In this document: piece by piece, positions 5,682 through 62,197 of the stretch
Layout: every line of letters starts with the position of its first letter
How positions within the stretch are numbered: the stretch's first letter is position 1
Origin: Undibacterium sp. 5I1
GTDB lineage: Bacteria > Pseudomonadota > Gammaproteobacteria > Burkholderiales > Burkholderiaceae_D
Assembly (NCBI RefSeq): GCF_034314085.1
Contig: NZ_JAVIWI010000001.1
Location: forward strand, 1,612,001 to 1,676,000
Reading direction: 5' to 3'
DNA length: 64,000 nucleotides
Position numbers and translations under genes: made by a program
Notes under the pieces: model-generated
The model's database searches: none
What the model was told of the DNA's origin: nothing
What the model saw: only the letters and a program-made list of their open reading frames with translations

Positions 5682-5756
5682 GGGGAGTATATGCATAATT
5701 AGCCGTATTATCCAGCATTTCTATGGATAATTTTAAATACACCCGCCCAGTATTAA
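5682..5756 (+). repeat. Dispersed element family, copy A (divergent)
   Basis: The spacer between rlmD and ndk (5409-5757) holds GGGGAGTATAT at 5682-5692. It is followed by an internal segment that aligns with other copies: GCC, TATTATCCAGCA, CTATGGATAATTTTAAATAC and a CCCAGTATTAAA end. The left arm is unlike the other copies, so this is a diverged or rearranged member. It ends just before the rlmD stop. I see no gene in this 350-bp gap. Confidence 0.45.
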
Positions 5757-5757
5757 A

Positions 5758-7092
5758 CTAATCCAAATCAAAAACTGCCATCGATTCTACGTGAGAAGTA
5801 TGTGGGAACATATTGACGACGCCAGCAAAACTCAAGCGATAGCCGGCCTGATTGACCAACATGCCAGCATCACGTGCTAGCGTGGATGGACTACATGACA
5901 CATACACAATACGCTTAGGCTTCAACTCTGGCGCTAAGCTGCCCAAATCGATCAGGGCTTGGCAAACTGCCATCGCACCATCGCGTGGGGGATCGACCAA
6001 AAAACGATCAAACTTACCCAAGGCAACGAAATCTTGCGCAGTAACTTCAAACAAATTACGCGTACCAAATGAAGTCGTCGCCTCTAATCCGTTGGCACGA
6101 GCATTCTCCATTGCCCGCTCTGTCAACGTGGAGCTACCCTCGATCCCCACAACTTCTTTTGCTAAAGTTGCAATCGGCAGCGTGAAATTGCCTAAACCGC
6201 AGAACAAGTCGGCAATGCGTTCGTCTTTTTGCACATCCAGCAAACGCAGAGCACGCTCGACCAGAACTCGATTGATATGATGATTAACCTGAGTAAAATC
6301 AGTCGGCTTAAATGGCATTTTTATACCAAACTCGGGCAATAAATAATGCAATTCACTTTGCTCTGGATAAAACGGGGTGGCTGTTTCTGGCCCTTTGGTT
6401 TGCAACCACCATTGGACTTGATATTGATCTGCAAAAGCCTTCAGCTTTACTTCATCCTCGGCAGTCAGTGCCTCCATGATGCGTAATACCATTGCGGTTA
6501 CGTCCTCGCCTATCGCTAGCTCGATTTGTGGTAACGCCTCAATAATCGATAAAGACGAAATCAGATCACGCAATGGCATGAGCATTGCAGACACATGCGG
6601 CGGTAAAATCTCGCAGGTTTCCATATTGGCGACATAGCGAGATTTTTTCTCATGAAAACCGACTAAGACTATGCCTTTTTTATGTACATTACGCACAGAA
6701 AGCCGGGCGCGATAACGGTAGCCCCAAGTCGGACCATAAATCGGTCGCAACATCGTCTCTGCTTTCACCTTGCTAATATGCCAGAGATTATCTTCCAGCA
6801 CGCGCTGCTTCATCGCCACTTGTGCATTTGACTCCAGGTGCTGCATAGAGCAACCGCCGCATACGCCAAAAAATTCACATTTAGGCTTAACCCGTTGTGA
6901 CGACTCGCGCACCAAGTGCGTCATATTGGCAGCTTCCCAGGTCGCCTTCTTTTTGAATGTACTGAAGCCAACTACCTCACCTGGCAAAGCTCCTTCAACA
7001 AAAACAACTTTTCCTGGAGTGCCATCTTCATTTTCCAGATGACCAACGCCACGTGCGTCCATGTCGAAAGAACGGATATTAATAGTATTCAT
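5758..7092 (-). CDS. rlmD: 23S rRNA (uracil-1939 C5)-methyltransferase RlmD
   Basis: SAM-dependent methyltransferase of the TrmA/RumA family that makes m5U1939 in 23S rRNA. An N-terminal TRAM-like domain is followed by the [4Fe-4S] cysteines in [16 protein letters not shown]. The SAM-binding segment [14 protein letters not shown], the VDPPRDGA loop and the catalytic cysteine in [12 protein letters not shown] come next. The start at 7092 ([15 protein letters not shown]) is preferred over the GTG at 7113, because the GTG falls inside an 8-bp inverted repeat. About 445 residues, normal for the family. Confidence 0.94.
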
Positions 7093-7101
7093 AATAATTG
7101 C

Positions 7102-7123
7102 GGCGTGATGCACAGATCACGCC
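7102..7123 (-). promoter_or_regulatory. Perfect inverted repeat directly upstream of rlmD
   Basis: GGCGTGAT (7102-7109) and ATCACGCC (7116-7123) form a perfect 8-bp inverted repeat with a 6-nt spacer, 10 bp before the chosen rlmD start. It could occlude the ribosome site as an RNA hairpin or be a regulator site. No T-run follows. Confidence 0.35.
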
Positions 7124-7257
7124 GATCAGGTTTAATTCAGAAAACGGGATTATAGGAGAAACTACGGAGAAAGCGCGTAGAAACTTGGGAGCAGGCTCAC
7201 AACCAGCTAGAAATTACCTTACTTACAGTGCAGCCCAAAGCACATCAGTCAGGTAAA

Positions 7258-8307
7258 TCACAGTAGTGCATCACGTTCTACGCCGCGCGACGAGAAGGAT
7301 CGCTTGAGCTTAATCAGCGCCTCTTGCTGGATTTGTCGCACACGTTCACGCGTGATACCCATTTCATCCGCCAAGGTCTCTAGCGTTGCGGGATCATCAT
7401 TATCAAGGCCAAACCTACGCACGATGACGATACGTTGCTTGTCCGGCAGCTTAGACAACCAATCTCTGACCAAAATAGTCATCTCATGCTGCTCTGCACG
7501 AATATCCGGTGTGTCATCGCTATCACCTGGCAGCATGTCCATCAAACTAGATTGCGGATCATTATCCAGAGGCGTATCGAGCGATGTTGCATGCTCAGAC
7601 AAAGCAAGAATATCTTGCACCTCATCCAGCGGTCTGTCGACCAAATGGGCGATATCTTCTAGCGCAGCATCACGACCATCATGCTGCTGTGATTCCAGAT
7701 GATATTTGGCACGTAAAATCTGGTTCAGTTCACGCACCATGTGCACAGGCAAACGGATAGTGCGCGCTTGGTTCATGATGGCGCGCTCAATACTCTGGCG
7801 TATCCACCATGTGGCGTAAGTCGAAAAACGGAAGCCGCGCTCAGGCTCGAACTTATCAATCGCATGCATCAACCCCAGATTACCCTCCTCTATCATATCG
7901 AGCAAGGCGACGCCGCGATTGATGTAATGCTTAGCGATGGAAACGACGAGCCGCAAATTGTGCTCGATCATTTTTTGGCGTGCTTCAAAATTACCTTGCT
8001 TGGCCAAAGTTGCATAGTGCAATTCTTCTGCGACAGAGAACAATGGGCGAGTGCCGATTTGATTCAGATAATGCTGCGTCGTATCGGTCGACAACTCAGC
8101 GGCTAATACTGTTTTCAGCTCATCAATCGGAGCAACGATTAAAGAAATCGGATTATCGTTTTGCCCATCCTCAGCCTCTTCAACCTCATCTTCAGAAAAA
8201 TCTGATGAGTTGGATCGTTCAGCGTTGGCATCAACCAGACCATCTTGATCTTGATCGTCGTCCGTTTCAGGCGATTGCAGTTGATGTTTAGTTGAAGTAT
8301 TGGGCAT
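7258..8307 (-). CDS. rpoS: RNA polymerase sigma factor RpoS (sigma-38)
   Basis: Stationary-phase and general stress sigma factor, 349 residues. Region 2 is clear ([20 protein letters not shown], then [20 protein letters not shown]). Region 3 follows ([11 protein letters not shown]), and region 4 ends in the helix-turn-helix around [20 protein letters not shown]. The N-terminus carries an acidic stretch of about 45 residues rich in Asp and Glu, longer than in E. coli RpoS. It sits 126 bp downstream of nlpD, and in related bacteria the main rpoS promoter lies inside nlpD. I did not identify that promoter here. Confidence 0.96.
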
Positions 8308-8433
8308 AGTGTGAGTTAAACGACTTATCCTATTTTGAACTTACTGACTAATTATTTTCTAACCAAAATTAAATAATGATTGCTCTTGATTCTAGCGTTG
8401 GCTCTAGCATTGTTTCTAGTAACCGATTACTAA

Positions 8434-9417
8434 TTACTGATGCGGCAAAAATTTAGACGGATCAACTGGCTTGCCTTGCTGCCTGATTTCAAAATGCAAC
8501 TTCACAGTATCACTATCAGAATCACCCATCTCGGCAATTCTCTGCCCTTTTGCAATAGTCTGTCCTTCAGTGACCAAAATGGTTTTGTTGTGAGCATATG
8601 CAGAGAGCAAGGTGCTTGTATGCTTGATGATCACAAGATTACCATATCCACGAATACCGTTACCGGCATACATTACTTTGCCAGCGCCAGCAGCCATGAC
8701 ACTCTGTCCCAGTTTGCCTGAAATATCGAGGCCCTTATTTTTTGCATCATCAAATCCGGCGATTACTTTCCCCTCTGCTGGCCAGATCCAATCCACCACA
8801 TCGCTGTCTGGAGTTGCAGCGTCAATTGGTTTATCTCGCTTAGGAACAGCAACTACCGCAGCCGGAGGCACGACATCTGATTTAGCAACAACCGGAGTGG
8901 CAGGACTCACTGCACCAGTCGAATCAAGCTTTTGTAGCTCAGCTAAATTGGCGTCTGAATATGGACGCTTATCACCGCGTGGACTGGTCTTATTGGTTGA
9001 TGGATTTATTGGTGCCGCCGTAAGCGATCTCACTTCTACGCCACTGGTGTTGACACTGCCTGTTTGCACAGAGGCGGTTCCATCTGGCGGCGCTACGCGC
9101 AAAACTTGATCTACTTTAATGTCATTAGGATTTTTTAAGTTATTCCATGCGACCAGATCGCTATAACTTTGCCCATTGTCTAACGCAATTCTGAATAAAG
9201 TATCACCACGCTTAACAACATAAGTCCCGCGAGTATCGGCTGGTTTTGGCGCGACTTTTGATACGTCCGTAACACCTTTGGAGTCTGCTTTTATGCTGTC
9301 ACTTCCGCGATCAATCACCGGGGCATTATTGGGCGTGGTACTACACGCAGTGATAACACCTGATAGAGCAACTGCGGGGACTAATGTGATTAATAACTTT
9401 AATTTCTTCATACTCAT
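8434..9417 (-). CDS. nlpD: NlpD-like LysM/M23 lipoprotein (amidase activator)
   Basis: Envelope lipoprotein of the NlpD/EnvC type, which activates cell-division amidases instead of cutting peptidoglycan itself. It has a signal peptide with a lipobox-like ITAC (Cys25), a LysM domain (YVVKRGDTLFRIALDNGQSY) and a Pro/Ala/Thr-rich linker. The C-terminal M23 fold runs from WIWPAEGKVIAG. The first metal-binding His of M23 enzymes is missing: the segment reads KNKGLDISG where active enzymes have a His. HFEI is retained. This is the expected degenerate state for NlpD. Gene order surE-pcm-nlpD-rpoS supports the call. Confidence 0.92.
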   Translation of the reverse strand: MSMKKLKLLITLVPAVALSGVITACSTTPNNAPVIDRGSDSIKADSKGVTDVSKVAPKPADTRGTYVVKRGDTLFRIALDNGQSYSDLVAWNNLKNPNDIKVDQVLRVAPPDGTASVQTGSVNTSGVEVRSLTAAPINPSTNKTSPRGDKRPYSDANLAELQKLDSTGAVSPATPVVAKSDVVPPAAVVAVPKRDKPIDAATPDSDVVDWIWPAEGKVIAGFDDAKNKGLDISGKLGQSVMAAGAGKVMYAGNGIRGYGNLVIIKHTSTLLSAYAHNKTILVTEGQTIAKGQRIAEMGDSDSDTVKLHFEIRQQGKPVDPSKFLPHQ

Positions 9418-9454
9418 TGCAGATTCAATTAATTAAATAATGGATTCATCAAAT

Positions 9455-10342
9455 TTAGATGACGCCTTGATGTAAAGGGACGAAATGACATTGCTCAAGT
9501 ATCGAACTTTGCCACTCATGTTTTGCGGTACGCTGAATTAATTGTAAAACTTGTTTAGCGCCACCCACTGGTGCGATCAGGCGGCCACCAATTGCTAGCT
9601 GCTCCAATAATGCCTTTGGCACTTCCATACCTGCGGCAGCCAAGATGATACCGTCAAATGGCGCAACTTGAGGCAAGCCCAACATACCATCGCCATAATG
9701 CAATCGAATATTCGCAATTCGCATGGGGCGCAGGTTGTTTTTAGCGAGTTCGTGCAGCGCTTTAATCCGTTCAATCGAATACACCTCTTTTGCCACCAAG
9801 GACAATACGGAAGCCTGATAGCCGCAGCCAGTTCCGATTTCTAAAACACGATTGAGTTTGCCATCATTACGCATAATTTCTATCATGCGCGCCACGATAT
9901 AAGGCTGTGAAATCGTTTGGTGATGCCCAATAGGAAGCGAAGCATCAACATAGGCCTGACTTGACATACCAGGCTCAATAAAAAGATGGCGTGGAATTGC
10001 CTCCAGCGCAGCTAATACTAAGCGATCTTTAACACCTTGCTGAGCAACACGTGCCACCATTGCACGCCGCACACCGTCCGAGACTAAAGGACGAGAGCTC
10101 ACTACGCTGGACGATGTCTGATCAGATTTTGTCGTTGGATTAGGATTAAGCGACGATGACCGGAGCGAATTTTTTGCGGCATTTTGTTTAGTGGCTCCAT
10201 GTTTGGCGGCATTTTGCGTCGCGGTCTGGGGTGTCGCCGTTTTTACCAAATGCGCTGAAGTAGATTGACGATGCGTTTGCTGCTTAGCGCTATCCATCAC
10301 GGAAGACAATTGCAAGGGAAAACGTTTTTCATTTTTGGTCAT
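9455..10342 (-). CDS. pcm: Protein-L-isoaspartate O-methyltransferase
   Basis: Repairs isoaspartyl residues in aged proteins by SAM-dependent methylation. The conserved domain starts at about residue 85 ([20 protein letters not shown]). It shows the family substrate segment [19 protein letters not shown] and the SAM motif [16 protein letters not shown]. The first 80 residues or so are a low-complexity Ala/Asn/Gln/Ser/Thr/Lys tail absent from E. coli Pcm. The start overlaps the surE stop by 4 bp (ATGA). A later internal start is possible but no better one is obvious. Confidence 0.93.
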
Positions 10343-11088
10343 GCTTCACCCACACCAAAATCGTCTTGCAATTGCGATAGTTGTTTTGTATTGGTCAGAT
10401 CAATTTGCAAAGGCGTGACCGATACATAGCCTTGCGCTGTCACAAAAAAATCTGTGCCTTCGCCTGCCTCTTTTGCTTTACCTGGTGGGCCTATCCAATA
10501 AATAACACGACCATGTGGATCTTGCGCTTTAATCACAGGCTCGGACATATGGCGCTTGCCCAGGCGCGCAGCACGGATCCCTTTAATATCCGGCATAGGC
10601 AAATTAGGGATATTCACATTCAACAAATAGGGTATGGGCAGCGCGGTAAAACCTTGCTTGACCATGTTCAGTGCTATTTTTGCCGCATCCTCAAGATGTG
10701 ACCATCCTTTATCGACTTGCGAAAAAGCGATGGCGGGTATGCCAAATAAATATCCCTCAGTCGCGGCGGCTACCGTACCGGAATACAAAGTATCGTCCCC
10801 CATATTCTGTCCCTGATTAATACCAGAAACGATCAAATCAGGCTTCTCCTGCATGATTGATGTCAGCGCAATGTGCACGCAATCAGAGGGAGTGCCATTC
10901 ACAAAATAAAAACCGTTCGACGCGCGCTGAGCTGACAAGGGTCGATCCAATGTCAAGGCGTTAGAACTACCGGAGCGATTGCTGTCAGGCGCGACCACGA
11001 CAATGTCGGCAATAGATGCTAAAGCATCGGCCAAAGCGACAATGCCAGGAGCGAGGTAACCATCGTCATTACTGATCAGGATTTTCAT
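10339..11088 (-). CDS. surE: 5'/3'-nucleotidase SurE
   Basis: Metal-dependent nucleotidase/exopolyphosphatase, a survival protein of stationary phase. The family N-terminus [15 protein letters not shown] carries the metal-binding DD pair. The motifs [15 protein letters not shown] and [21 protein letters not shown] are intact. The start at 11088 is chosen because it gives this canonical N-terminus; an upstream in-frame start at 11097 would add three residues. It is coupled to pcm by a 4-bp overlap and diverges from the quinone oxidoreductase gene. Confidence 0.95.
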
Positions 11089-11196
11089 AAGAAACATTTT
11101 AACCGATGCAACATTGTAATTTGAGACAAGCGTCGGATTTTTGCGGCATAATCACAAAATCAAACGGTCGTACTATTTTAAAGAGGAGACAAATAC

Positions 11197-12177
11197 ATGA
11201 AAGCCGTACTTTGCAAAGCATGGGGTTTACCAGATACCTTGGTCGTAGAAGAGTTGCCAGATCTTGTTGCAAGCGCTGGACAAGTGGTGATTGATGTAAA
11301 AGCCGCCGGGGTTAACTTCCCAGATGTTCTGATCATCCAAAACAAATATCAATTTAAACCAGAATTGCCTTTCACCCCGGGCAGCGAATTGTCTGGAGTG
11401 GTGAGGGCCGTCGGTGATGGAGTCAGCAATATCAAGGTCGGCGATAAAGTAATTGCCTTCATCGGTCACAGCGCATTCGCACAGCAGGTCGTAGCACCTG
11501 CGCAAGCGGTGATGCCTATGCCACTTGGAATGGATTTCGATACTGCAGCAGCGATTACTCTCACCTATGGCACATCGCATCACGCGGTAGTCGATCGTGC
11601 TCAGTTAAAAGCCGGAGAAACGATGTTGGTGCTAGGCGCTGCCGGTGGCGTTGGCCTGGCAGCGATTGAAATCGGCAAAGCATTAGGGGCACGCGTAATC
11701 GCCGCGGCCTCGTCCGATGAGAAGCTCGCTATTTGCAAAGAACATGGCGCCGATCTGACGATCAACTACAGTACACAAGACCTGCGTGAGGCAATCAAAG
11801 CGGCAACAGATGGTAAAGGGCCAGATGTTATTTACGATCCGGTTGGTGGCATCTATGCAGAACCTGCATTCCGCTCCATTGCTTGGCGCGGACGTTATCT
11901 GGTCGTGGGATTTGCAAATGGTGAAATCCCGAAATTGCCATTAAACTTAACGCTGCTCAAAGGTGCTTCTTTAGTCGGTGTGTTTTGGGGAGAATTTGCC
12001 AAACGCGAACCTAAAGCAAATCTGGCAGCAATGCGCGAATTAATTGGCTGGTTAGCTGAAGGCAAAATCAAACCACGAATTTCTGGGCGCTATGCATTAA
12101 AAGATACGGCGATTGCGTTGAACGATATAGCCGCTCGCAAAGTTACCGGCAAAGTTGTTATACAGCCAGAGAAGTAA
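11197..12177 (+). CDS. NADPH:quinone oxidoreductase family protein (zinc-independent MDR)
   Basis: Medium-chain dehydrogenase/reductase of the quinone reductase type, 326 residues. The GroES-like N-terminal half (GVNFPDVLIIQNKYQ, FTPGSELSGVV) lacks the zinc-binding cysteines of alcohol dehydrogenases. The Rossmann motif is LVLGAAGGVGLAAIE. A strong GAGGAGA ribosome site lies 8 nt before the ATG. It stands alone, divergent from surE. The substrate cannot be read from the sequence. Confidence 0.88.
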   Translation: MKAVLCKAWGLPDTLVVEELPDLVASAGQVVIDVKAAGVNFPDVLIIQNKYQFKPELPFTPGSELSGVVRAVGDGVSNIKVGDKVIAFIGHSAFAQQVVAPAQAVMPMPLGMDFDTAAAITLTYGTSHHAVVDRAQLKAGETMLVLGAAGGVGLAAIEIGKALGARVIAAASSDEKLAICKEHGADLTINYSTQDLREAIKAATDGKGPDVIYDPVGGIYAEPAFRSIAWRGRYLVVGFANGEIPKLPLNLTLLKGASLVGVFWGEFAKREPKANLAAMRELIGWLAEGKIKPRISGRYALKDTAIALNDIAARKVTGKVVIQPEK

Positions 12178-12197
12178 TTTTCAGTTTTTTGCATGCA

Positions 12198-12288
12198 TAA
12201 GACTTACGCAAAGCCGCCCAGCTTCTTGCAGCACTAAAGTAATTTCTTCGTTGCTGCGCTTTACTGGGACAATTTTGTGTAAGTCTTA
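12198..12288. repeat. Small hairpin element, family 2, copy 1
   Basis: A 91-bp near-palindrome downstream of the quinone oxidoreductase gene. Its ends are TAAGACTTACGCAAA (12198-12212) and TTTTGTGTAAGTCTTA (12273-12288). Inner arms also pair (CCAG with CTGG, GCAGCA with TGCTGC). A second element with related ends is at 32884-33019. It looks like a MITE or REP-like structured repeat, and could also act as a terminator for the convergent genes. Confidence 0.6.
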
Positions 12289-12390
12289 ATTAAAGATATC
12301 GACGCAGAACTTGTGCAAAACTCATCCATCATAAAAGAGACGGATAAGATTCCCCGCTTAATCTAGCGCAAGTTCAATACGCCGAAAATC

Positions 12391-12480
12391 AATATACTCC
12401 CCAATATTTTTAAAAAATATGCCTTATTGCCCAGTTAATCTCTGGACGACTAAAATATACTCATCATGAGTATTATATTT
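12391..12480 (+). repeat. Dispersed element family, copy B
   Basis: Begins AATATACTCCCC (12391-12402), continues with a T/A-rich arm and ATGCC, and has the inner inverted repeat CCCAG...CTGGAC. It ends in AAATATACTCATCATGAGTA and ATATTT. It lies between the convergent quinone oxidoreductase and HD-GYP genes. Together with the family 2 hairpin it accounts for most of the 12178-12571 spacer, where I see no gene. Confidence 0.7.
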
Positions 12481-12571
12481 ACCTTGAATAGCAATCCAAA
12501 TAAAAAAGCAATCAAAATGAGTGCTTATTCATGTCGCAACAACCATTAAGAATCGTCTTTTCAAATGCCAA

Positions 12572-14849: not shown

Positions 14850-14914
14850 TAATAGGCTTAATAGACTTAGAAGACTTACCGGCCTGATTGAGCCGTATTG
14901 AGACTAATCTTCAG

Positions 14915-26714: not shown

Positions 26715-29219
<2,505 letters not shown>

Positions 29220-29303
29220 AATACTCCCCACTGGTTTTTTTAACTCCCAATACGAAACCTAGACAACAGGTGAATTTTATTAAAAACAAAGGGGAGTATA
29301 TTT
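29220..29303 (-). repeat. Dispersed element family, copy C (next to IS30 copy 1)
   Basis: Bounded by AATACTCCCC (29220-29229) and GGGGAGTATATTT (29291-29303). The 84-bp interior is more diverged than in other copies but keeps the T/A-rich arms. The right end lies 34 bp from the left end of the first IS30 element. Confidence 0.65.
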
Positions 29304-29335: not shown

Positions 29336-30437
29336 GGCGGATTCAGCTACGAAGAGCAACGGGAGGTAAGTTTTAGGGGGAGTATATCCAAATTATAAAA
29401 AACCTCAAACGGCGTTCGATAGCCGAGGCATTTCCTAGGGCGATGATTGAGTTGATTGACTGCCCGTTGCAACTGGGCTTGAGTGATTTCCTTGAAGTTG
29501 GTGTTCTTTGGAAAGTAGTATCGTAATAAGCCGTTCGTGTTCTCGTTGAGCCCCCGCTCCCAGGAATGATACGGATGAGCGAAGTACACTTGGGCTTGCA
29601 GATGTGCTGCGATGGACTCATGCCCTGCAAACTCCCTGCCATTATCGAACGTGATGGTATGGCAGTGCTGCTGATGTGGCGTGAGCAGTTGCTCGATGCT
29701 GGCAGCAACTCCTTGCGCGTGTTTGCTATGATGTTGCCGGGCTAAGGTAAAACGAGAGACACGATCGACCCGCGTAATGACGATACCTTGCTGTTTCTTG
29801 CCAATGATCGTATCGCCCTCCCAGTCGCCTAAGCAGATTTTTTGATCCACGATCGCGGGTCGTTGGTCAATGCTGATACGGTTCTTGAGCATGCCCCGGC
29901 GCTGTTGACCACTACCGTAGCGTTTGCGGTAGGGCTTCTGACCCCGCAGATGCTTGAAGAGAGTGCCGCCCGCTCTGCGGTCAGCGTAGATGCGCAGATA
30001 GACGGTTTCATGACTGCTCTTCATTTTTTCCTGCCGTTCCAGGCTTAACCGTTCGATTGCTTGCTGCGGCGATAAGTCCATGCGCAGGTAGGTCGAGACG
30101 GCGAGCCAGTCGTTGTCATCAATACGTCGTGCGTTACGACTATTCTTTTGTCGTTCGTCGGCTATTTTTTTCGCTTGTAAGGGGCGCCACCCGCTTCCTC
30201 CGGTATTGCGCTTGAGTTCCCTGTGGATGCTGGACTTATGACGATGGAGTGCGGCAGCAATCTCGCTGACTGTCTTTTTTTCTAACCGCAGTGCGTAAAT
30301 TTGGTATCGTTCGTCTTGGGTTAGGTGTGTGTAGCGCATATTCGGCAACTTTCGACTGGCTGGTCAAAAGGCAGAATGCTATCGCATCTGACCCTTTGAC
30401 TTTTTATTCAACGTTGCTCTTCGTGCTTGAATCCACC
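29336..30437 (-). mobile_element. IS30-family insertion sequence, copy 1 (1102 bp, intact)
   Basis: Left end GGCGGATTCAGC and right end (read inward) GGTGGATTCAAG begin imperfect terminal repeats of about 26 bp that share ACGAAGAGCAACG. The element is flanked by a 3-bp direct repeat AAG (29333-29335 and 30438-30440), typical of IS30-family target duplications. It carries one transposase gene. The second copy at 40346-41447 has the same length. Confidence 0.92.
29347..30348 (-). CDS. IS30-family transposase (copy 1)
   Basis: A 333-residue DDE transposase. The N-terminal helix-turn-helix (YTHLTQDERYQIYALRLEKK, then VSEIAAALHRHKSSIHREL) is the IS30 signature. Catalytic residues are in DWEGDTIIGK, TITFDNGREFAGH and the NENTNGLLRYYFPK segment. 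The stop codon lies within the left terminal repeat, so the C-terminus is encoded by the IS end. The last 20 codons or so include NLDILP, whose DNA contains the 11-bp TATACTCCCCC also found at the ends of the dispersed repeat family. Confidence 0.95.
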   Translation of the reverse strand: MPNMRYTHLTQDERYQIYALRLEKKTVSEIAAALHRHKSSIHRELKRNTGGSGWRPLQAKKIADERQKNSRNARRIDDNDWLAVSTYLRMDLSPQQAIERLSLERQEKMKSSHETVYLRIYADRRAGGTLFKHLRGQKPYRKRYGSGQQRRGMLKNRISIDQRPAIVDQKICLGDWEGDTIIGKKQQGIVITRVDRVSRFTLARQHHSKHAQGVAASIEQLLTPHQQHCHTITFDNGREFAGHESIAAHLQAQVYFAHPYHSWERGLNENTNGLLRYYFPKNTNFKEITQAQLQRAVNQLNHRPRKCLGYRTPFEVFYNLDILPLKLTSRCSS

Positions 30438-40227: not shown

Positions 40228-40312
40228 AATATCCTCCCAACATTTTTATTAAAAATACCCTACTATCCAATGATTAAATGGACAATTAAATATACATACT
40301 GGGAGTATATAA
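40228..40312 (+). repeat. Dispersed element family, copy D (next to IS30 copy 2)
   Basis: Begins AATATCCTCCCAAC (40228), with arm TTTTTATTAAAAATACCC, inner repeat TATCCAATG...ATGGACAATTAA, and end TACTGGGAGTATATAA. About 85 bp. The right end lies 35 bp from the left end of the second IS30 element, as with copy C. The rest of the spacer 39981-40345 holds only the terminator. Confidence 0.75.
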
Positions 40313-40345
40313 TTTACATCCACCGTATTTTAGAATAAGGAAGAG

Positions 40346-41447
40346 GGCGGATTCAGCTACGAAGAGCAACGGGAGGTAAGTTTTAGGGGGAGTATATCCA
40401 AATTATAAAAAACCTCAAACGGCGTTCGATAGCCGAGGCATTTCCTAGGGCGATGATTGAGTTGATTGACTGCCCGTTGCAACTGGGCTTGAGTGATTTC
40501 CTTGAAGTTGGTGTTCTTTGGAAAGTAGTATCGTAATAAGCCGTTCGTGTTCTCGTTGAGCCCCCGCTCCCAGGAATGATACGGATGAGCGAAGTACACT
40601 TGGGCTTGCAGATGTGCTGCGATGGACTCATGCCCTGCAAACTCCCTGCCATTATCGAACGTGATGGTATGGCAGTGCTGCTGATGTGGCGTGAGCAGTT
40701 GCTCGATGCTGGCAGCAACTCCTTGCGCGTGTTTGCTATGATGTTGCCGGGCTAAGGTAAAACGAGAGACACGATCGACCCGCGTAATGACGATACCTTG
40801 CTGTTTCTTGCCAATGATCGTATCGCCCTCCCAGTCGCCTAAGCAGATTTTTTGATCCACGATCGCGGGTCGTTGGTCAATGCTGATACGGTTCTTGAGC
40901 ATGCCCCGGCGCTGTTGACCACTACCGTAGCGTTTGCGGTAGGGCTTCTGACCCCGCAGATGCTTGAAGAGAGTGCCGCCCGCTCTGCGGTCAGCGTAGA
41001 TGCGCAGATAGACGGTTTCATGACTGATCTTCATTTTTTCCTGCCGTTCCAGGCTTAACCGTTCGATTGCTTGCTGCGGCGATAAGTCCATGCGCAGGTA
41101 GGTCGAGACGGCGAGCCAGTCGTTGTCATCAATACGTCGTGCGTTACGACTATTCTTTTGTCGTTCGTCGGCTATTTTTTTCGCTTGTAAGGGGCGCCAT
41201 CCGCTTCCTCCGGTATTGCGCTTGAGTTCCCTGTGGATGCTGGACTTATGACGATGGAGTGCGGCAGCAATCTCGCTGACTGTCTTTTTTTCTAACCGCA
41301 GTGCGTAAATTTGGTATCGTTCGTCTTGGGTTAGGTGTGTGTAGCGCATATTCGGCAACTTTCGACTGGCTGGTCAAAAGGCAGAATGCTATCGCATCTG
41401 ACCCTTTGACTTTTTATTCAACGTTGCTCTTCGTACTTGAATCCACC
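40346..41447 (-). mobile_element. IS30-family insertion sequence, copy 2 (1102 bp, intact)
   Basis: Same length, ends and gene as the copy at 29336-30437. It is flanked by its own 3-bp direct repeat GAG (40343-40345 and 41448-41450). I noticed only three base differences between copies (in the transposase Ser/Ile codon, a silent position, and the right end), so the two separated recently. It inserted 8 bp past the stop codon of the neighbouring Cache-domain gene without breaking it. Confidence 0.92.
40357..41358 (-). CDS. IS30-family transposase (copy 2)
   Basis: A 333-residue DDE transposase identical to copy 1 apart from an Ile where copy 1 has Ser (KMKISHETVYLRIYADRR). All catalytic segments (DWEGDTIIGK, TFDNGREFAGH and NENTNGLLRYYFPK) are intact, so both copies should be functional. 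Confidence 0.95.
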   Translation of the reverse strand: MPNMRYTHLTQDERYQIYALRLEKKTVSEIAAALHRHKSSIHRELKRNTGGSGWRPLQAKKIADERQKNSRNARRIDDNDWLAVSTYLRMDLSPQQAIERLSLERQEKMKISHETVYLRIYADRRAGGTLFKHLRGQKPYRKRYGSGQQRRGMLKNRISIDQRPAIVDQKICLGDWEGDTIIGKKQQGIVITRVDRVSRFTLARQHHSKHAQGVAASIEQLLTPHQQHCHTITFDNGREFAGHESIAAHLQAQVYFAHPYHSWERGLNENTNGLLRYYFPKNTNFKEITQAQLQRAVNQLNHRPRKCLGYRTPFEVFYNLDILPLKLTSRCSS

Positions 41448-48112: not shown

Positions 48113-48200
48113 AATATACTCCCTCTATTTTTAAATAAATATGCCTCAAAGCCCAATTAATATATGGACAATTTAATATACAGCCAACCAGTATATTAAA
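48113..48200 (+). repeat. Dispersed element family, copy E
   Basis: Begins AATATACTCCCTC (48113), arm ATTTTTAAATAAATATGCC, inner repeat GCCCAATTAA...TATGGACAATTT, then AATATACAGCC and an ACCAGTATATTAAA end. 88 bp, between the ABC/M1 operon and the glutathione transferase gene. Only a doubtful 67-codon frame follows it. Confidence 0.75.
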
Positions 48201-52128: not shown

Positions 52129-52157
52129 CAATGTAATTAAAAACTTCATCAAGTCGT

Positions 52158-53104: not shown

Positions 53105-53143
53105 AGAGTTTCTTATCCCACATCGAAAAATAAACAGGAAAAA

Positions 53144-53229
53144 AATATACTCCCTCCATGTATTATTTAATAGTCCATATAAAATATTGACAATAACGCG
53201 TATTTTTAAATAATTATGGGGAGTATTTA
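53144..53229 (-). repeat. Dispersed element family, copy F
   Basis: Begins AATATACTCCCTCC (53144), and ends TTATGGGGAGTATTT (53229). Inner parts TAGTCCATATAAAATA and TTGACAATAAC match the reverse orientation of the family. 86 bp, 39 bp upstream of the LysR gene. Confidence 0.72.
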
Positions 53230-53746: not shown

Positions 53747-54133
53747 ATGCTTGCCGTAGGAACTGTCAAATTGAATGGGATGGATGAAAAATTCAACCAG
53801 CACACGGGGATGATGCAATCCAAGGTGAAGCACCACTATGCGGGTGACATCGAAGCTGAGTCTTGTTTTGAATGTCTTAGTTTTTCCGCCAACGCCAATT
53901 CCGGAAATTTTGTCGGACTAGAATATCTGACGGGTCGCATCGGCAATCGCCGGGGCGGATTTATTCTGCAACACGTAGGATCAATCAAATCGGGTAAATC
54001 TGAAAGCACATTAAATGTGTTAACCGGCTCAGGCACAGGAGAACTGGCTGGCATCAAGGGTTACGGACGTTGTACCTGGAGCGATATTGGTGGTCAGGTT
54101 TCTCAGGTTTTACTTGAATATCATTTTGACTAG
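53747..54133 (+). CDS. DUF3224 domain protein
   Basis: A 128-residue beta-barrel-like protein of the DUF3224 type. Features are the WDEK-like start (LNGMDEKFNQHTGMMQSKVK), SGNFVGLEYLTGRIGNRRGG, FILQHVGSIKSGKSESTLNV and GSGTGELAGIKGYGR. It resembles the allene-oxide-cyclase-like fold. No function is known. The start at 53747 is chosen because GAGGGAGA lies directly before it. Confidence 0.82.
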   Translation: MLAVGTVKLNGMDEKFNQHTGMMQSKVKHHYAGDIEAESCFECLSFSANANSGNFVGLEYLTGRIGNRRGGFILQHVGSIKSGKSESTLNVLTGSGTGELAGIKGYGRCTWSDIGGQVSQVLLEYHFD

Positions 54134-54254
54134 GCATCAACGCTAAAGTCAATAAACCAAACTAACGATTTCGATGAGAAGTACTCGAAGTGCTACTCGA
54201 CTTCTTAAGCGATTAACTTCAACTCTGTTGTAAGCCCTATCGTTAGACCGATCT

Positions 54255-55418: not shown

Positions 55419-55469
55419 AGAAGTCTCAATAAGAATCAATTTCAAATCAATTGCGGAGATAATACGGCT

Positions 55470-55508
55470 AAAAAAAACCGCCTTACTTCAGAGCAGAAAT
55501 AAGACGGC
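55470..55508 (-). terminator. Intrinsic terminator after nusB
   Basis: On the minus strand GCCGTCTTATTT pairs with AAGTAAGGCGG, followed by TTTTTTTT. It lies about 50 bp past the nusB stop and ends the ribBA-ribH-nusB transcript. Confidence 0.85.
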
Positions 55509-55559
55509 TTTCGTAAAATTATGTTGATTGCTACTTTCGGGTAAAAACCTGACTCAGAT

Positions 55560-56024
55560 TTACTTCCCTGCGCTGATCTCAGTAGCACGCAATCTGGCAG
55601 CTAATTTATCCAAAACGCCATTCACATATTTATGACCATCCAAACCGCCAAACGACTTGGTCAGTTCTACCGCCTCGTTGATGACGACGCGATAAGGGAT
55701 TTCTATATGGTGCTTTAATTCGTAAGCACCGATCAGCAAGGCAGCATGCTCAATTGGCGACAATTCAGCAATGGTGCGATCAATCAAAGGTGCGATCTCT
55801 TCGCGCAATTGGATCGATTGTTTGATTGCGCCATGCAAGAGCGCGTCAAAATGCTCACGGTCCGCTTTGTCAAAGCCATGCGCCTGACGGATATGGGCAT
55901 CAATCACGCCAGAATCTTCATTGTTCAATAACCATTGATACAATCCTTGCAAAGCGAATTCGCGGGCGCGATGTCTTGGCGAACGGCTTTTACTCGGGTT
56001 GGCGTGGATTTGTTTGCTTGTCAT
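55560..56024 (-). CDS. nusB: Transcription antitermination factor NusB
   Basis: A 154-residue all-helical RNA-binding protein that works with NusE in rRNA antitermination. Typical segments are [36 protein letters not shown] and [19 protein letters not shown] with [14 protein letters not shown]. The start at 56024 has AAGAG 7 nt upstream. It follows ribH in the usual ribBA-ribH-nusB order. Confidence 0.95.
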
Positions 56025-56118
56025 ATTTTTCTCTTGCAAATGTATTTTGATTGCGCTCTGTTTGATTTTTTACGCAATTTATTTTAACTCTGTACTATGA
56101 ATATTGGTCACTCAATGA

Positions 56119-56616
56119 TCAAGCATCAAAATCAGCATCGTCAGTAGCTTCTGCCAATTCTTCCAATGCCAGCGTCAGATTGGCCATTTCAACTGCGACG
56201 CGGGCAGCATCAGTGCCCTTTTCTACCATGCGCGCTTCTGCTTGTTCGTCGTTTTCAGTCGTCAAAATCGCATTTGCAATCGGAATGCCACTATCCAGGC
56301 CAACACGCGTAATCCCTGCGCCAGATTCATTCGACACCAGTTCAAAATGATAAGTCTCACCGCGGATCACTGCACCTAGCGCAATTAAAGCATCAAACTG
56401 ATGGGTTTCAGTCAATTTAAGCAAAGCCAGCGGTACTTCTAAAGCACCCGGTACGGTGACATGCAAAATATCTTCATCCAAGACACCAAGGCGGGATAAT
56501 TCGGCCAGGCAAGAAGAGAGCAAACCATTGCCAACTTTTTCGTTAAAGCGCGCTTGCACGATACCAATGCGCACGCCAGCGCCATCCAAATTTGAGTCGT
56601 AATGTCCAACGGTCAT
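56119..56616 (-). CDS. ribH: 6,7-dimethyl-8-ribityllumazine synthase
   Basis: Penultimate enzyme of riboflavin synthesis, 165 residues. It has the family segments [55 protein letters not shown] and [15 protein letters not shown]. The start at 56616 ([15 protein letters not shown]) is fixed by AAGGGAAA 7 nt upstream; a longer frame begins in a low-quality region. It lies 95 bp after ribBA. Confidence 0.96.
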
Positions 56617-56711
56617 GATGTTTCCCTTTTGCGCCTTGGCGCTGCAATAAAAAAAGTAAAGAATGGATCTCAACAAGAATAGGTTATTTTCTCCTACTCA
56701 AATAATTTTCT

Positions 56712-57821
56712 TCAAACAGGTTTGTCCAGATAGCCAACTACTTCCAGATCAAAGCCTATCATTGACGGCATTTTTCTTGGATTGGCGAGTAACTTCATAC
56801 GGCTGACACCGACATCCTTCAATATCTGGGCACCGATACCGTAGGTACGCAAATCCATGCTGGCAGCGCGTCCTTGCGGTTTAGTTTTAGGTGTCGTCAA
56901 TGCTTTGAATTGATCAAACATCTGCTCGGCTGTTTCTTCGCAATTCAACAATACCAGCACACCGCATGGTGAGGCCTGCACTGCCGCCATTGCGGTGGCG
57001 ACATTCCAAGAATGCGTAGTGATTTTGCTCTCTAACAGATCAAGAATCGAGACCGGTTGATGCACACGCACCAAGGCGACCTCTTCCGATTTAATGTCGC
57101 CATGTACCAAAGCTAAATGGGCAGAGCCACTTGGTTTGTCGCGATAGACGATGGCGTTAAACGTGCCATGCACTGTTTGCATTTCGCGCTCGGCCACACG
57201 TTCGACGATACTTTCGTTCTGACTACGATAATGGATCAGGTCAGCAATCGTGCCAATTTTCAAACCATGTTCTTTAGCGAATTCCATCAAGTCCGGCAGA
57301 CGCGCCATGGTACCGTCGTCTTTCATGATTTCGCAAATGACCGCGGCTGGCGTCAAGCCTGCCAAATCCGCCAGATCGCAACCGGCCTCAGTATGGCCAG
57401 CACGCATTAAGACGCCGCCTTTTTGTGCTTTGAGTGGGAAAATATGACCCGGCTGCACTATGTCGTTCGCGGTCATTTTTTTATCAACGGCTACTTGTAT
57501 TGTACGCGCACGGTCTGCAGCAGAAATCCCCGTAGTCACTCCCTCAGCGGCTTCGATCGAGACTGTAAAATTAGTGCCATAAGCGGTACCGTTACGACTG
57601 GACATCATCGCCAGGTTCAACTCATCACAGCGCTCTTCTGTTAGTGTAAGGCAGATTAATCCGCGACCAAATTTGGCCATAAAATTAATCGCCTCTGGCG
57701 TCACAAACTCTGCTGCCATCAACAAATCGCCTTCGTTTTCGCGATCTTCTTCATCAACCAAAATGACCATACGACCAGCGCGCAATTCGGCAACAATCTC
57801 TAAGGTATTCGACATGTTCAT
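56712..57821 (-). CDS. ribBA: Bifunctional-type 3,4-dihydroxy-2-butanone 4-phosphate synthase / GTP cyclohydrolase II-like (RibBA)
   Basis: Riboflavin pathway protein, 369 residues. The RibB domain (residues 1-205 or so) has the metal-binding [19 protein letters not shown] and [20 protein letters not shown]. The RibA domain is shortened and lacks the zinc triad CXXXDXXC..C, since the region after [16 protein letters not shown] has no such cysteines. It may therefore give only the RibB activity, as in many Burkholderiales, with a separate RibA elsewhere. It is the first gene of the ribBA-ribH-nusB run. Confidence 0.93.
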
Positions 57822-57910
57822 GGGGGGAGTCCTGGAGTTTTTGTGTTGTGCTTCAGTTGGAATTGCGAGTACTTCGTGCGCTTAGACTTAAATACAAGAC
57901 CGCACAAATA

Positions 57911-57940
57911 AAAAAAGCCGCTAAAAAGCGGCAATTTTTT
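57911..57940 (-). terminator. Terminator-like hairpin in the ribBA leader
   Basis: GCCGCT and AGCGGC pair around a 4-nt loop with T-runs on both sides (AAAAAAAGCC... and ...GCAATTTTTT on the plus strand). It sits inside the predicted ribBA leader, about 25 nt after the promoter start and 90 bp before the start codon. It could act as an attenuator. Confidence 0.6.
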
Positions 57941-57969
57941 CTCAAAACCAGACTGCTTTAGTAGGCCGC

Positions 57970-57997
57970 ATTATACAACTTAGTCAGACTGACGCAA
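57970..57997 (-). promoter_or_regulatory. Candidate ribBA promoter
   Basis: On the minus strand TTGCGT (57997-57992), a 16-bp spacer, and TATAAT (57975-57970). The transcript would begin near 57963 and run into the hairpin at 57911-57940. Confidence 0.55.
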
Positions 57998-58133
57998 AAT
58001 CAGGGGCAACTTCGATATACAACGTCTAAACATAGTTAGCGGGGAGTTATATAAAAATCAGACCTGAATGCTGCCTTCCCCAAATGCTCTCGCAAGATTT
58101 TAGATAATCTGATTAAAAATCCACTCGCAATAT

Positions 58134-58221
58134 AAATATACTCCCATCAGGTATATTTAAGCCGTCCAAATAACTATTGGAAAATTGACCAATTTTCAAA
58201 AAAATAATGGGGAGTATATTA
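58134..58221 (-). repeat. Dispersed element family, copy G
   Basis: Bounded by AAATATACTCCCATCAGG (58134 on) and AATGGGGAGTATATT (to 58220). Reverse-complemented it aligns with copy H over the whole 88 bp. A possible solo end GGGGAGTTATATAA lies 90 bp away at 58041-58054. It accounts for part of the 57822-58392 spacer. Confidence 0.78.
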
Positions 58222-58230
58222 AATTTTACT

Positions 58231-58285
58231 CTAACTAAGTTCTAACTAAGTCCTAACTAAGTTCTAAATGAGTTCTAAATAAGCC
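58231..58285. repeat. 11-bp tandem repeat, five units
   Basis: Units CTAACTAAGTT, CTAACTAAGTC, CTAACTAAGTT, CTAAATGAGTT and CTAAATAAGCC run head to tail directly after copy G. The last two are diverged. No gene is in the spacer. Confidence 0.75.
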
Positions 58286-58392
58286 ATTACTAAACGTTAA
58301 CTGGTTCCAAACAAAATTAAAACAAAATGCAGAAATCTGGATTCCACTTTCAGTCTCTGCATTCATGCGATCTACTCATTGATCACAAAGGA

Positions 58393-61300
58393 CTATCCTG
58401 GTCCGTCACCATCGCCGTGTCCACGGGTTTCTACCGGGACCGCACCGCCATTTTTACCTTCGAAGAAGAAAGGCTTTCTGGCTTTAGACGTACCACCCAC
58501 TTCGTTCATCGTGTTGACATCGTACAAACGGCCGTTCAGCATCACATTGGTAATTTTGTCGGAGTTTTGGATGTTCGCCAAAATGTCGCCGTTGATGATA
58601 ACCAGATCGGCCAGTTTGCCGGTCTCTAATGACCCGACATCTTTTTCCATACCAAGATATTTAGCACCGTTCAGCGTTGCGACACGGATCGCTTCTAGCG
58701 GTGTCATGCCACCACGACCGAGTGTCCACATTTCCCAATGGGCGCCCAAACCTTCACGCTGACCGTGTGCACCCAGATTGACCGGGACGCCAGCGCGTTG
58801 CAATTCGGTTGCTGTGCGGGCGATGTTGAAGACGTTGTAATCCTCTTCTGGTGCAGTCTCCACCCGCACACTACGTGCTTGCAACACCGTCGCGGGTACA
58901 TAACGCGACAAAATCGGATGACGCCATACATCCGTGTGTGCATACCAATAATGCTCGCCATCCAGTCCGCCATAACCAACGATCAGGGTTGGTGTGTAGC
59001 CCACTTTGGTTTGCGACCATAATTGTTTCACGTCGTCATAGGCATTGGCGACCGGGATTGCATGTTCGATGCCCGTATGCCCATCAACGACCATCGTCAT
59101 ATTATGCTCAAACAGTGAACCACCTTCTGGCACCACCATCATGCCGGTCTCACGCGCCGCTTCCAAAATTTGCTGACGCTGATCGCGACGTGGCTGGTTA
59201 TAACTCTTGACTGAGATGGCTCCGCCCGCTTTCAGGCGTTTTAAATGCGTGAGTGCGTCATCCAAATTATTGACGATGGCGCTCATGTTGGCCTTTGCAC
59301 CGTACAAAATCGTCCCGGTAGAAAAAATCCGCGGCCCCACCACTTTGCCCGCCCGTTGCAGTTCGCTCTGGCTAAAAATCTCAGCCGTGTCGTTGGATGG
59401 ATCATGGATCGTCGTCACACCAAAGGCAAGTGAGGCATAGTTGATCCAGCTTTGCTGTGGAATGATTTCATCCTCACCCATACCGCCGTGCCAATGCACA
59501 TCGACGATGCCAGGAATAATCGTTTTACCAGCAGCATCGATTTGCATCGCACCAGCCGGGATTGCGACGTCTGCGGCCTTACCAATGGCGACGATGCGAT
59601 TATCTATAATCACAATGCGTCCATTCTCGATGACTTCATCCCCGCGCATGGTCACAATACGCGCACCAGAAATTACCTTGGTGCCGACGGGCTTATTCGC
59701 GGCTTCCTGGAAACCAATTTTCAACCCCGCCTCGGTTGGTTTAGCGACTTCTTTAGGAGAACCCGGCAAAAACGTGAACGCATTTTTTAATTCGCTACTA
59801 AACAGTTCATCACCCAGCGAGAAAAAAATCTTGCTGCTATCGCCCGACCAATGCGTATAGTCACCCGCATTAACATCAAGCTGCTTGACGGGCAACGCAT
59901 CCATTTTTGGCCCTACGGTCACAGGCTTACCCGCGATCGGCAGCGGTGTGACATAGGTATGGAAGCGCTCGGTAAATGCCAGCCAGTTGCCGTCTGGCGA
60001 CAAGGCAAAGTCACTCACAAATTCGCCTTTAGCCACGGCTTGCTCTTCCCCTTTGTTTAAATCAATGCGGACAAGCGATGTCGTCCAATCTACTTCACCG
60101 GCGCGTTTCATGCGGGACACATACAACTGATCATTATCTTTGCCAAACTGTGGCGCGCTGCCCTCATCAGTGACTAAGCGCGGAGTCGCTTTACCATCCG
60201 CACTCGTCACAAAAATACCGGTATCCAAACCAAACCAGGGTGTCGTCAAATAACCGCCATGCATTTTTTCAAAAGCGATTTGTTTGCCATCGGGAGAAAA
60301 TTGAGGATTCACATATTTACCAGGACTCTTGGTGATAATCGTTTCTGAGCCGCCACGCACATCAATGGTACGCACCGATCCCAGTTTTTCATCATCCCAG
60401 GTGGTGAATACGATGCTGCGACCATCACGAGAAAATCGTGGGAAAAATTCAAAATGGTCTTGTTGTTTGGTCAAACGCTGCGGCGTGCCATTTGGCAAAT
60501 CGCGTACATACAATTGCCCTAAAGCCGAGTACACCACTTTATTACCTTGTGGCGAAACATTCACCCAGCGCAGTTGATGCACATCAAATTTATCTGGCGC
60601 GACGGGCGTTTCAAAACGGACGGCAGCACGGATTTCTCTGGTGTCTTTGACGTGAAAAGCGATTTCTTTTGCGGTATGCGCAAATGGATCAACACGCCAA
60701 ATTTTACCTTTGGCCCACAGCACCATTTGTTTGCTGCCCGGCAGCCAACTCATCGACGGATACACGCCATGCACAGCCCAGGTTTCTTGCATATCGCGCT
60801 CTAGGTCACTCCATGCAACTTTCTCTTCACCGGTCTCTAAGTCTTTCAAAAATAAAGTACTTTGGTTGCGCACGCGACGCACAAACGCCAAGTATTTACC
60901 ATCAGGCGAAGGCGTTGGACGTACCGCACCACCAGCGCCGCTGACAAACGCTTTGGTCTTACCGTCTTTTAAATCTTTACGGAAAATCTGATAAATCTGG
61001 GCATTCCCATTTTTATTGTATTCAAATGAATTCCCCGGTGTCGTGTCCTGGGAGTAGTAAACATAACGACCATCAGGAGAAAAAGCAGGCTCGCCCAAAT
61101 CTTTTTGCCAATTTGGTTTCTCATTCAATTGCACACCCGCGCCACCGCCAATGGAGTACAACCAAATCTCGCCAGACCCCAATGAACGCGTACCAGTAAA
61201 GTGCTTACGGGCAGCAATATACTGACCATTCGGATGCCAGACAGGATTATTCAATAAGCGGAAATCTTCTTTGGTCAAGGCGTGTGCGTTGCTGCCATCC

Positions 61301-61680
61301 ACATCCATCACCCAAATATTGTCGCCACCACCGGCATCTGACATGTAGGTTAATTGCTTACCATCTGGCGAAAAGCGCGCCTGCATTTCCCACGCGATGC
61401 TATGTGTCAGTGCTTTAGCCTCGCCACCTTCAACTGGCATCAAATACAAATCGCCCAGCAAATCAAACACAATTTGCTTACCGTCAGGGCTGACGTCAAC
61501 ACTCATCCAGGTACCGGTTTTGGTATCGACAGCCACCGTGCTCGCCACACCTGGCGGCGCATTCACGTCCCATTTTTTCTTGGCATCAGCGGCGTCTTTG
61601 GGGGTTTCTGCACTGATGGCGACGGTACTACACAAGCTGAGTAGTAAGGCGCACCAATGTGCTTTTGTGATGAATTGCAT
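58393..61680 (-). CDS. TolB-type propeller / amidohydrolase fusion protein (secreted)
   Basis: A 1095-residue protein with an N-terminal signal peptide (CALLLSLCSTVAISAE). Residues 40-660 or so contain many TolB/PD40 beta-propeller repeats with the SPDGK motif (for example RFSPDGKQLTYMSDAGGG and PQFSPDGKQIAFEKM). The C-terminal 430 residues form an amidohydrolase-superfamily domain with the metal-binding DVHWHGGMG and later SKSYNQ- and GHTGIEH-like segments, then KYLGMEKDVGSLETGKLADL. It is probably a periplasmic hydrolase of a peptide- or amide-like substrate. The tail ends in a Gly/Asp-rich stretch. Not obviously linked to its neighbours. Confidence 0.85.
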   Translation of the reverse strand: MQFITKAHWCALLLSLCSTVAISAETPKDAADAKKKWDVNAPPGVASTVAVDTKTGTWMSVDVSPDGKQIVFDLLGDLYLMPVEGGEAKALTHSIAWEMQARFSPDGKQLTYMSDAGGGDNIWVMDVDGSNAHALTKEDFRLLNNPVWHPNGQYIAARKHFTGTRSLGSGEIWLYSIGGGAGVQLNEKPNWQKDLGEPAFSPDGRYVYYSQDTTPGNSFEYNKNGNAQIYQIFRKDLKDGKTKAFVSGAGGAVRPTPSPDGKYLAFVRRVRNQSTLFLKDLETGEEKVAWSDLERDMQETWAVHGVYPSMSWLPGSKQMVLWAKGKIWRVDPFAHTAKEIAFHVKDTREIRAAVRFETPVAPDKFDVHQLRWVNVSPQGNKVVYSALGQLYVRDLPNGTPQRLTKQQDHFEFFPRFSRDGRSIVFTTWDDEKLGSVRTIDVRGGSETIITKSPGKYVNPQFSPDGKQIAFEKMHGGYLTTPWFGLDTGIFVTSADGKATPRLVTDEGSAPQFGKDNDQLYVSRMKRAGEVDWTTSLVRIDLNKGEEQAVAKGEFVSDFALSPDGNWLAFTERFHTYVTPLPIAGKPVTVGPKMDALPVKQLDVNAGDYTHWSGDSSKIFFSLGDELFSSELKNAFTFLPGSPKEVAKPTEAGLKIGFQEAANKPVGTKVISGARIVTMRGDEVIENGRIVIIDNRIVAIGKAADVAIPAGAMQIDAAGKTIIPGIVDVHWHGGMGEDEIIPQQSWINYASLAFGVTTIHDPSNDTAEIFSQSELQRAGKVVGPRIFSTGTILYGAKANMSAIVNNLDDALTHLKRLKAGGAISVKSYNQPRRDQRQQILEAARETGMMVVPEGGSLFEHNMTMVVDGHTGIEHAIPVANAYDDVKQLWSQTKVGYTPTLIVGYGGLDGEHYWYAHTDVWRHPILSRYVPATVLQARSVRVETAPEEDYNVFNIARTATELQRAGVPVNLGAHGQREGLGAHWEMWTLGRGGMTPLEAIRVATLNGAKYLGMEKDVGSLETGKLADLVIINGDILANIQNSDKITNVMLNGRLYDVNTMNEVGGTSKARKPFFFEGKNGGAVPVETRGHGDGDGPG

Positions 61681-62109
61681 CTTGTCTCCAGTGGGTATTG
61701 AATCAGCAGGATCAGCGTTAGGAAAATTTGGATAAATTAAACCAACAGCACGGCGATTAAACTCAGCGATTGCTTAGCGATTGAATTACGCTGCTGATAT
61801 TGTAAAAGAACATTGCCAGATTGAATTAAGTTGTCTGATTTAATTATGTGTTACTTGATTATGTATCAGCACAATCTCGCATGTTGATCGCTATTAAATG
61901 GATGCCCAAAGGAGTTAAGGCGTCATTCCCGCATGGTTTTAGCCGAAATCCAGCGACGTTTGTTGCGCCGCACGTCTGAATTGATAGCGACAATACTATT
62001 TATCAGGCTAACGACACGGGATACCGTTTAAAAACATGCCAGAATGGCATGAAAAATCCATCATCCATAAAAATCTGCCCACATTCAAACTATATGCCAA
62101 CAAGAAATC
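61681..62109. other. Non-coding spacer upstream of the amidohydrolase gene
   Basis: About 430 bp with no credible gene. A stretch at 61921-61957 reads CGTCATTCCCGC, then ATCCAGCGAC, resembling a widespread class of bacterial intergenic repeats with those words. A small hairpin TGCCAGAATGGCA is at about 62037. Confidence 0.35.
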
Positions 62110-62197
62110 AATATACTCCCCATTATTTATAAAAAAATTACCCTATCGTCCAGACTTTATATGGACAATTAAAATATACTTACCAGGTGTATATAAA
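62110..62197 (+). repeat. Dispersed element family, copy H
   Basis: Begins AATATACTCCCCATTATT (62110), arm AAAAAAATTACCC, inner repeat CGTCCAGAC...TATGGACAATTAA, then AATATACTTACC and AGGTGTATATAAA. 88 bp, the best reference copy for the left end. It lies between the clpB end and the amidohydrolase start. Confidence 0.78.

Follow-up and report, generated by a model that had tools for sequence, protein, structure and literature searches.

The window, the whole 64,000-nucleotide stretch analysed here, covers positions 1612001-1676000 of contig C1 of Undibacterium sp. 5I1 (G000), whose 4.88 Mb genome consists of contigs C1 (4.709 Mb) and C2 (171 kb). It contains seven clear copies of an 86–88 bp repeat, a degenerate remnant of an eighth near position 5682, and two insertion sequences of the IS30 family. 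We built a covariance model, R1, from a 16-copy alignment with all seven window copies among its rows. The features are listed below with their R1 scores and their counterparts in G056, a sister species about 93% identical.

5688..5758, + strand: degenerate element remnant, 5′ end replaced (R1 E 0.23; nhmmer columns 24–84)
12391..12478, + strand: element copy, full length (R1 91.9 bits; ortholog in G056 C171)
29216..29302, − strand: element copy, full length (R1 74.4 bits; ortholog at G056 C225:2269-2356)
29336..30437, − strand: IS30-family insertion sequence (transposase ORF 29347-30348; NF033563 285.8 bits)
40228..40313, + strand: element copy, full length (R1 80.7 bits; ortholog at G056 C225:12085-12172)
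40346..41447, − strand: second, identical IS30-family copy (ORF 40357-41358)
48113..48199, + strand: element copy, full length (R1 78.6 bits; G056 ortholog not resolvable, one flank only)
53142..53229, − strand: element copy, full length (R1 match; same junction occupied in G056 and G011)
58133..58220, − strand: element copy, full length (R1 89.0 bits; ortholog in G056)
62110..62197, + strand: element copy, full length (R1 97.6 bits; ortholog in G056)

The window also encodes a bacterial small SRP RNA (RF00169, 42830-42928, minus strand). An 11-bp tandem array (TCTAACTAAGT) occupies 58230-58293 beside the element at 58133, and G056 is 22 bp shorter there.

A high-copy repeat family

A preliminary description of this DNA had listed eight copies, seven clear and one divergent, and that observation was right. 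The seven intact copies match R1 at E 9.1e-9 or better. The copy near 5682 also exists, in degenerate form (E 0.23): only model columns 24–84 are recognisable, at about 5695-5754, and its G056 counterpart is equally degenerate. The window E-values are not independent because these seven copies sat in the 16 rows of R1; the genome-wide matches are. In a search of G000 with R1, the best 150 of 2961 candidates were scored and all match, every one over model positions 1–88 and on C1. The family is larger than first reported. Element length is near-constant (86–88 bp; all 150 scored genome matches span the full model). A strict pattern of the element ends occurs once in the window and never in 100 shuffled versions, and TATACTCCCC words occur 51 times in 704 kb against ∼1.3 expected, 47 of them in elements and three in IS30 copies. 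The repeat is thus far beyond chance.

The two IS30-family copies in the window each begin close to an element: one starts 33 bp past the GGGGAGTATATT end of the copy at 29216..29302, and the other about 33 bp past the GGGAGTATAT end of the copy at 40228..40313. Eight full copies of this insertion sequence are present in the genome (L194-L201). Three of the eight interrupt an element near model columns 31–34; the one at C1:2181751 is flanked by a duplicated target CCA, and its target element is intact in G056. The two window copies are about 33 bp away from an element, and the remaining three are located elsewhere. The repeat is a landing site for the IS30-family element, which is itself no part of it. 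The ends of both window copies are unrelated to the element ends, in keeping with the earlier statement that no transposase with matching ends is in the window; none was seen. A TATACTCCCC word also occurs near one end of the insertion sequence.

Sequence plan and structure

The consensus of 161 copies reads AATATACTCCCC, an A/T arm (ATTTTTATAAAAAAT), a spacer, a hairpin (ATTGTCCA-N9-TGGACAAT), TAAAATATAC, six variable bases and GGAGTATATT. This bears out the plan first proposed, in which AATATACTCCCC and an A/T arm lead through a TGTCCA...TGGACA hairpin to a GGGGAGTATATT inverted end. The terminal inverted repeats pair columns 2–10 with 77–85; end pairs 4-83 to 8-79 form in 54–57 of 57 copies and the outer and inner pairs in fewer, and about 10 bp is all that the two ends have in common.

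The suggestion of a structured repeat holds for the central hairpin. Among 57 copies from ten genomes, its covariation score is 0.267, against 0.134 ± 0.015 in shuffles, with 33 double-changed cells against 12.1; covariation also exceeds that of slid controls. The strongest mutual-information pair among all columns (41-55) is a change from C-G to G-C. In other species the ends are kept and the hairpin arms are often different (e.g., GCGCA...TGCGC), and at the 53142 junction of G011 the arms are replaced yet still pair. The suggestion does not extend to the outer stem and A/T arm, which show no covariation and are conserved in sequence instead.

Wobble pairs reveal no preferred strand in the central stem: the 161 copies have 78 GT and 82 AC cells there. 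The outer stem has 97 AC cells against 14 GT, mostly C-A where the 3′ side varies. We put this excess down to G-to-A changes on that side; it is still an asymmetry.

Copy number and position along the chromosome

We sampled C1 at even intervals in 15 stretches of 20 kb (300 kb); these contain 26 copies at E < 1e-5, which scales to about 408 chromosomal copies. A second estimate, from 57 near-full-length copies in 604 kb, gives about 440. Five 20-kb stretches of C2 (100 kb of 171 kb) contain none. Within the sampled stretches, only the chromosome carries the element.

Positions relative to genes were counted with a simple hexamer caller (498 genes, coding fraction 0.79) for 55 of the 57 copies, leaving out two that had no called neighbour. 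All lie between genes, as first described, with 0 of 55 in a predicted ORF. Fifty-three follow at least one gene 3′ end (17 in convergent and 36 in tandem gaps); divergent gaps account for 23.5 of the 106.6 kb between genes, yet hold just two copies. Copies have a median distance of 99 bp from a gene 3′ end and 190 bp from a gene start, and 70 of 327 scanned G000 gene 3′ ends carry an element. Both orientations occur, again as described: window copies lie on either strand, and the copies in tandem gaps, 17 sense and 19 antisense, have no orientation preference.

A position behind genes could mean that the element acts as RNA, folding in the transcript as a bidirectional terminator or as a stabiliser of mRNA 3′ ends. 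The earlier mention of a terminator or RNA structure rested on this position, which stands; a covarying hairpin fits it as well, and a near-palindromic element could act on either strand. We nonetheless consider an RNA-level role unlikely. A strand-specific RNA is unsupported by orientation (17/19) or by central-stem wobble (78/82), and in the window the repeat matches no Rfam family at gathering score. An intrinsic terminator fares no better: the terminator score is reached in nine of 114 element strands, and a terminator-like site precedes the element at 10 of 70 element-bearing gene ends. This was a simple scanner: it called a site at 19 of the 70 gene ends that carry an element and at 52 of the 257 that lack one, so the scan reads as uninformative to negative. 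Together, the even GT and AC cells and the random orientation favour a role at the DNA level; RNA made from both strands is still compatible with them.

Regular spacing, or an orientation specific to each half of the chromosome, would have favoured a chromosome-organising site, and their absence counts against one: the 150 top matches are uniformly placed along C1 (KS p 0.66), their spacing is not significantly regular (p 0.08–0.17), and orientation is not biased between C1 halves, with the terminus assumed mid-contig and the GC skew of the samples not clearly supporting that assumption.

Stability and apparent selection between sister species

To compare individual sites, three G000 blocks (324 kb) were set against five G056 contigs. 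The blocks contain 33 intact copies, of which 27 could be placed by both flanks (for two of these, neighbours of IS30, this worked only from G056 to G000) and one, C33628, from a single flank together with gene order; the other five were not placeable. All 28 placeable copies are occupied in G056. One further G000 copy is split by IS30 and is intact in G056. Conversely, all 29 intact G056 copies on the compared contigs have G000 counterparts, 28 intact and one split. The element is stable between G000 and G056 in the blocks compared.

With no empty site among these 28 loci, no target duplication can be read. Empty sites are visible by this comparison, as another repeat illustrates: a repeat of about 121 bp at G056:C188 (L189:12667-12788) is absent at the syntenic G000 place. 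The 121-bp repeat is also found at G000:C1 3973272, 2809600, 4535341 and 2019791, and is a candidate mobile MITE. The preliminary description had held that copies in the same places, with no empty sites, would speak against a non-autonomous mobile element, and for this species pair that is what was found. As an origin, mobility is plausible, given the dispersed copies, the inverted ends and the variable occupancy of the 53142 junction (see below); for the present, the mobile-element reading is unsupported.

The same pairs suggest that the copies are constrained where they are. Across the 28 G000/G056 pairs, the 46 element columns conserved among 109 copies have changed in 67 of 1279 cells; the count is 189 of 1155 for the remaining 42 columns and 455 of 3207 for the 60-bp flanks. 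Because the 109 copies include some of those tested, we redefined the columns from 18 copies of other species. Conserved columns then differ in 53 of 997 cells and other columns in 203 of 1437 (p 5.5e-13): the rate of change in the conserved columns is lower by a factor of 2.7 than in the rest of the element (bootstrap 95% CI of the rate ratio 0.27–0.50), where it is about that of the flanks. The conserved-column rate is the lower one in 27 of the 28 pairs, and seven pairs have no conserved-column change at all. Gap columns number eight in the elements and 196 in the 60-bp flanks. The parts that change more slowly at orthologous sites are the ends, the A/T arm, the central hairpin and an inner ATATAC box.

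That the variable columns change at the flank rate argues against gene conversion between copies, under which orthologs would differ in those columns as much as paralogs. The most diverged pairs are those of the two window copies beside IS30 and of B107163. In the 26 pairs that remain when the two beside IS30 are left out, ortholog stem changes kept the pair in 15 cases, left it paired in one genome in 17 and in neither in eight, and so by themselves give no clear compensation. From this one species pair, the copies look like they are under selection at their sites.

Distribution in the genus and beyond

A multi-species model, R2, was run with the best 103 candidates scored per genome. It matches in 22 of 43 Undibacterium genomes, 15 with at least 16 copies and seven with one, and has no match in the other 21; detected copy number therefore ranges from 0 or 1 to several hundred. 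Six of the seven single copies (L225-L230) lie at one orthologous junction and are 80–92% identical. By eye, this junction is between a sugar-isomerase-like and a sugar-binding-protein-like gene. Among 300 genomes of the order, searched with stricter filters and the best 14 candidates scored per genome, settings that divergent relatives may escape, only three match, all of the same genus, and the other 297 do not. In named genomes the end pattern is found in at least 120 stretches, and all 80 among the matches listed are from Undibacterium or a ‘Burkholderiales bacterium’ MAG. Viral contigs contain no strict-pattern site, and PLSDB plasmids and INPHARED phages gave no match with one copy as query. 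Among the genomes searched, the element has been seen only in Undibacterium.

Copy-rich species are scattered over a tree of RAYT (REP-associated tyrosine transposase) proteins from 30 genus members (at least four changes), a tree of one gene with weak deep forks. Such scatter fits an old family with several losses. At the 53142 junction, the element is present in G056 and the more distant G011, with no match in G021, G057 and G015, where the gene gap is 55–64 bp against about 220; G014, G006 and G020 are not comparable there. To judge from this occupancy, the single junction followed does show turnover among distant relatives. For the other three elements in the 44–64 kb part of the window, no counterpart was found in the scanned syntenic loci of relatives, and several of those junctions lie at synteny breaks. 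The missing copies at the 53142 junction, with 21 of 43 genomes lacking a match and seven having one, suggest that any function would be dispensable or replaceable.

RAYT and the question of a transposase

Another explanation is that the elements form a REPIN-like population, rarely moved by the genome’s RAYT acting on a single-stranded hairpin. G000 has one RAYT-like gene (PF01797 42.1 bits; NCBIfam REP_Tyr_transpos 60 bits, below the cut-off of 80), and 42 of the 43 genus genomes have a RAYT match, 40 strong and two weak. An element lies about 128 bp behind RAYT in G000, with a counterpart in G056, and another lies behind RAYT in G020. The element also has REP-like traits, namely its hairpin, extragenic position, orientation neutrality and targeting by insertion sequences. 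As the mover, however, RAYT is unsupported when followed through the 43 genomes. An element is present at three of the 30 loci examined (of 40 strong), with R1 and R2 alike; these three belong to the 15 loci from copy-rich genomes, and 70 of 327 gene 3′ ends in G000 carry an element anyway. At 24 of the 30 loci, a different motif pair, ACTATGTCCC and ACACTGACCC with variants, lies behind the gene, 48–49 bp apart. By eye this pair resembles the GGGGWSAS inverted repeats given in PMC3733652, and its words are no commoner than chance in 704 kb of G000. RAYT also occurs in genomes without a detected element, and the element lacks a GTAG or CGTC tag and has ends that share only about 10 bp. We therefore give a RAYT-driven population little credence. 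The RAYT-like genes (L089-L118, that of G000 being L090) lie mostly just upstream of an apparent gltB, by eye.

An ordinary MITE family, old and decaying, its transposase now lost and without host function, would account for the inverted ends, for dispersed copies in both orientations and for the 53142 junction without an element in G021, G057 and G015, but it is a very improbable reading: no empty site separates the sisters, though the 121-bp repeat appears to show one at G056:C188, the conserved columns change more slowly in place, element length is near-constant, and no pair of element halves surrounds a gene in the 604 kb sampled, save one split by IS30.

A candidate structure at transcription-unit ends

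The reading that we tentatively prefer, at a little under an even chance, is that of an old REP/BIME-like 88-bp chromosomal family that once spread and is now kept by selection as a DNA structure at transcription-unit ends. Early in the genus Undibacterium, the element may have spread as a non-autonomous mobile element by way of a putative transposase. Today it would work as double-stranded or extruded-hairpin DNA, read alike in either orientation. A putative protein would bind the 10–12 bp ends and the inner box, and the bound element may mark or insulate the boundary of the transcription unit, one possibility being a topological or supercoiling boundary. Such a role has been proposed for the BIMEs of E. 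coli. The copies apparently do not move now and their key bases are fixed in place, and so they resemble functional components of the chromosome.

A bolder version of this conjecture is that the ∼400 copies of this ex-mobile repeat are each kept by selection, every one at its own place, as dedicated binding sites for a putative Undibacterium protein that marks or insulates transcription-unit ends, and so form a functional set of sites across the genome. We regard it as rather doubtful, if worth stating. It is an old question whether REP-like repeats are selfish, of use to the host or neutral. Here an untagged family, one not consistently linked to RAYT, can be followed copy by copy through two sister species of a genus of water bacteria, and the importance of individual copies to the host becomes directly testable. 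The analysis supplies a covariance model and a genus with widely varying copy number.

Comparison with known repeat families

The earlier remark that no named family has these ends stands: no description was found in the literature, in a search covering few subscription journals, and the window gave no Rfam match to the repeat. MITEs of the ERIC and Correia type are intergenic, about 100 bp long, with inverted ends and a hairpin. The element resembles these descriptions in its intergenic position, similar length, inverted ends and hairpin. It differs in being stable between sister species and apparently selected in place, with no target duplication or empty site seen. Of the usual MITE features it thus has the terminal inverted repeats, while target-site duplication and empty sites were not found. 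An autonomous element with matching ends was looked for in the 604 kb sampled and did not turn up there.

REPINs, as PMC3116915 describes them, likewise have inverted conserved ends around a less conserved, hairpin-capable middle. Their 16-bp invariant ends, described there for one strain, contrast with the about 10 bp shared by the ends of the element; in addition, the demonstrated hairpin of the element is central, and RAYT is adjacent in just three of the 30 loci examined.

The REPs and BIMEs of enterobacteria and pseudomonads are the closest comparison, albeit with clear differences. REPs of the GTAG and CGTC superfamilies, as PMC3733652 defines them, carry one of these tags unpaired at the foot of the palindrome; by eye, neither tag is present in the 161-copy consensus on either strand. 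The near-constant 88-bp unit, in place of 20–40 bp, the inner ATATAC box and the lack of a consistent RAYT link also set the element apart. The insertion of IS30 into the repeat finds a parallel in insertion sequences of five other families that target REPs, as reported in PMC1525189; both serve as landing sites. Finally, the element shares with REPs and BIMEs, as PMC3733652 presents them, an extragenic, high-copy and hairpin-forming character and a position mostly downstream of genes, between tandem or convergent ones.
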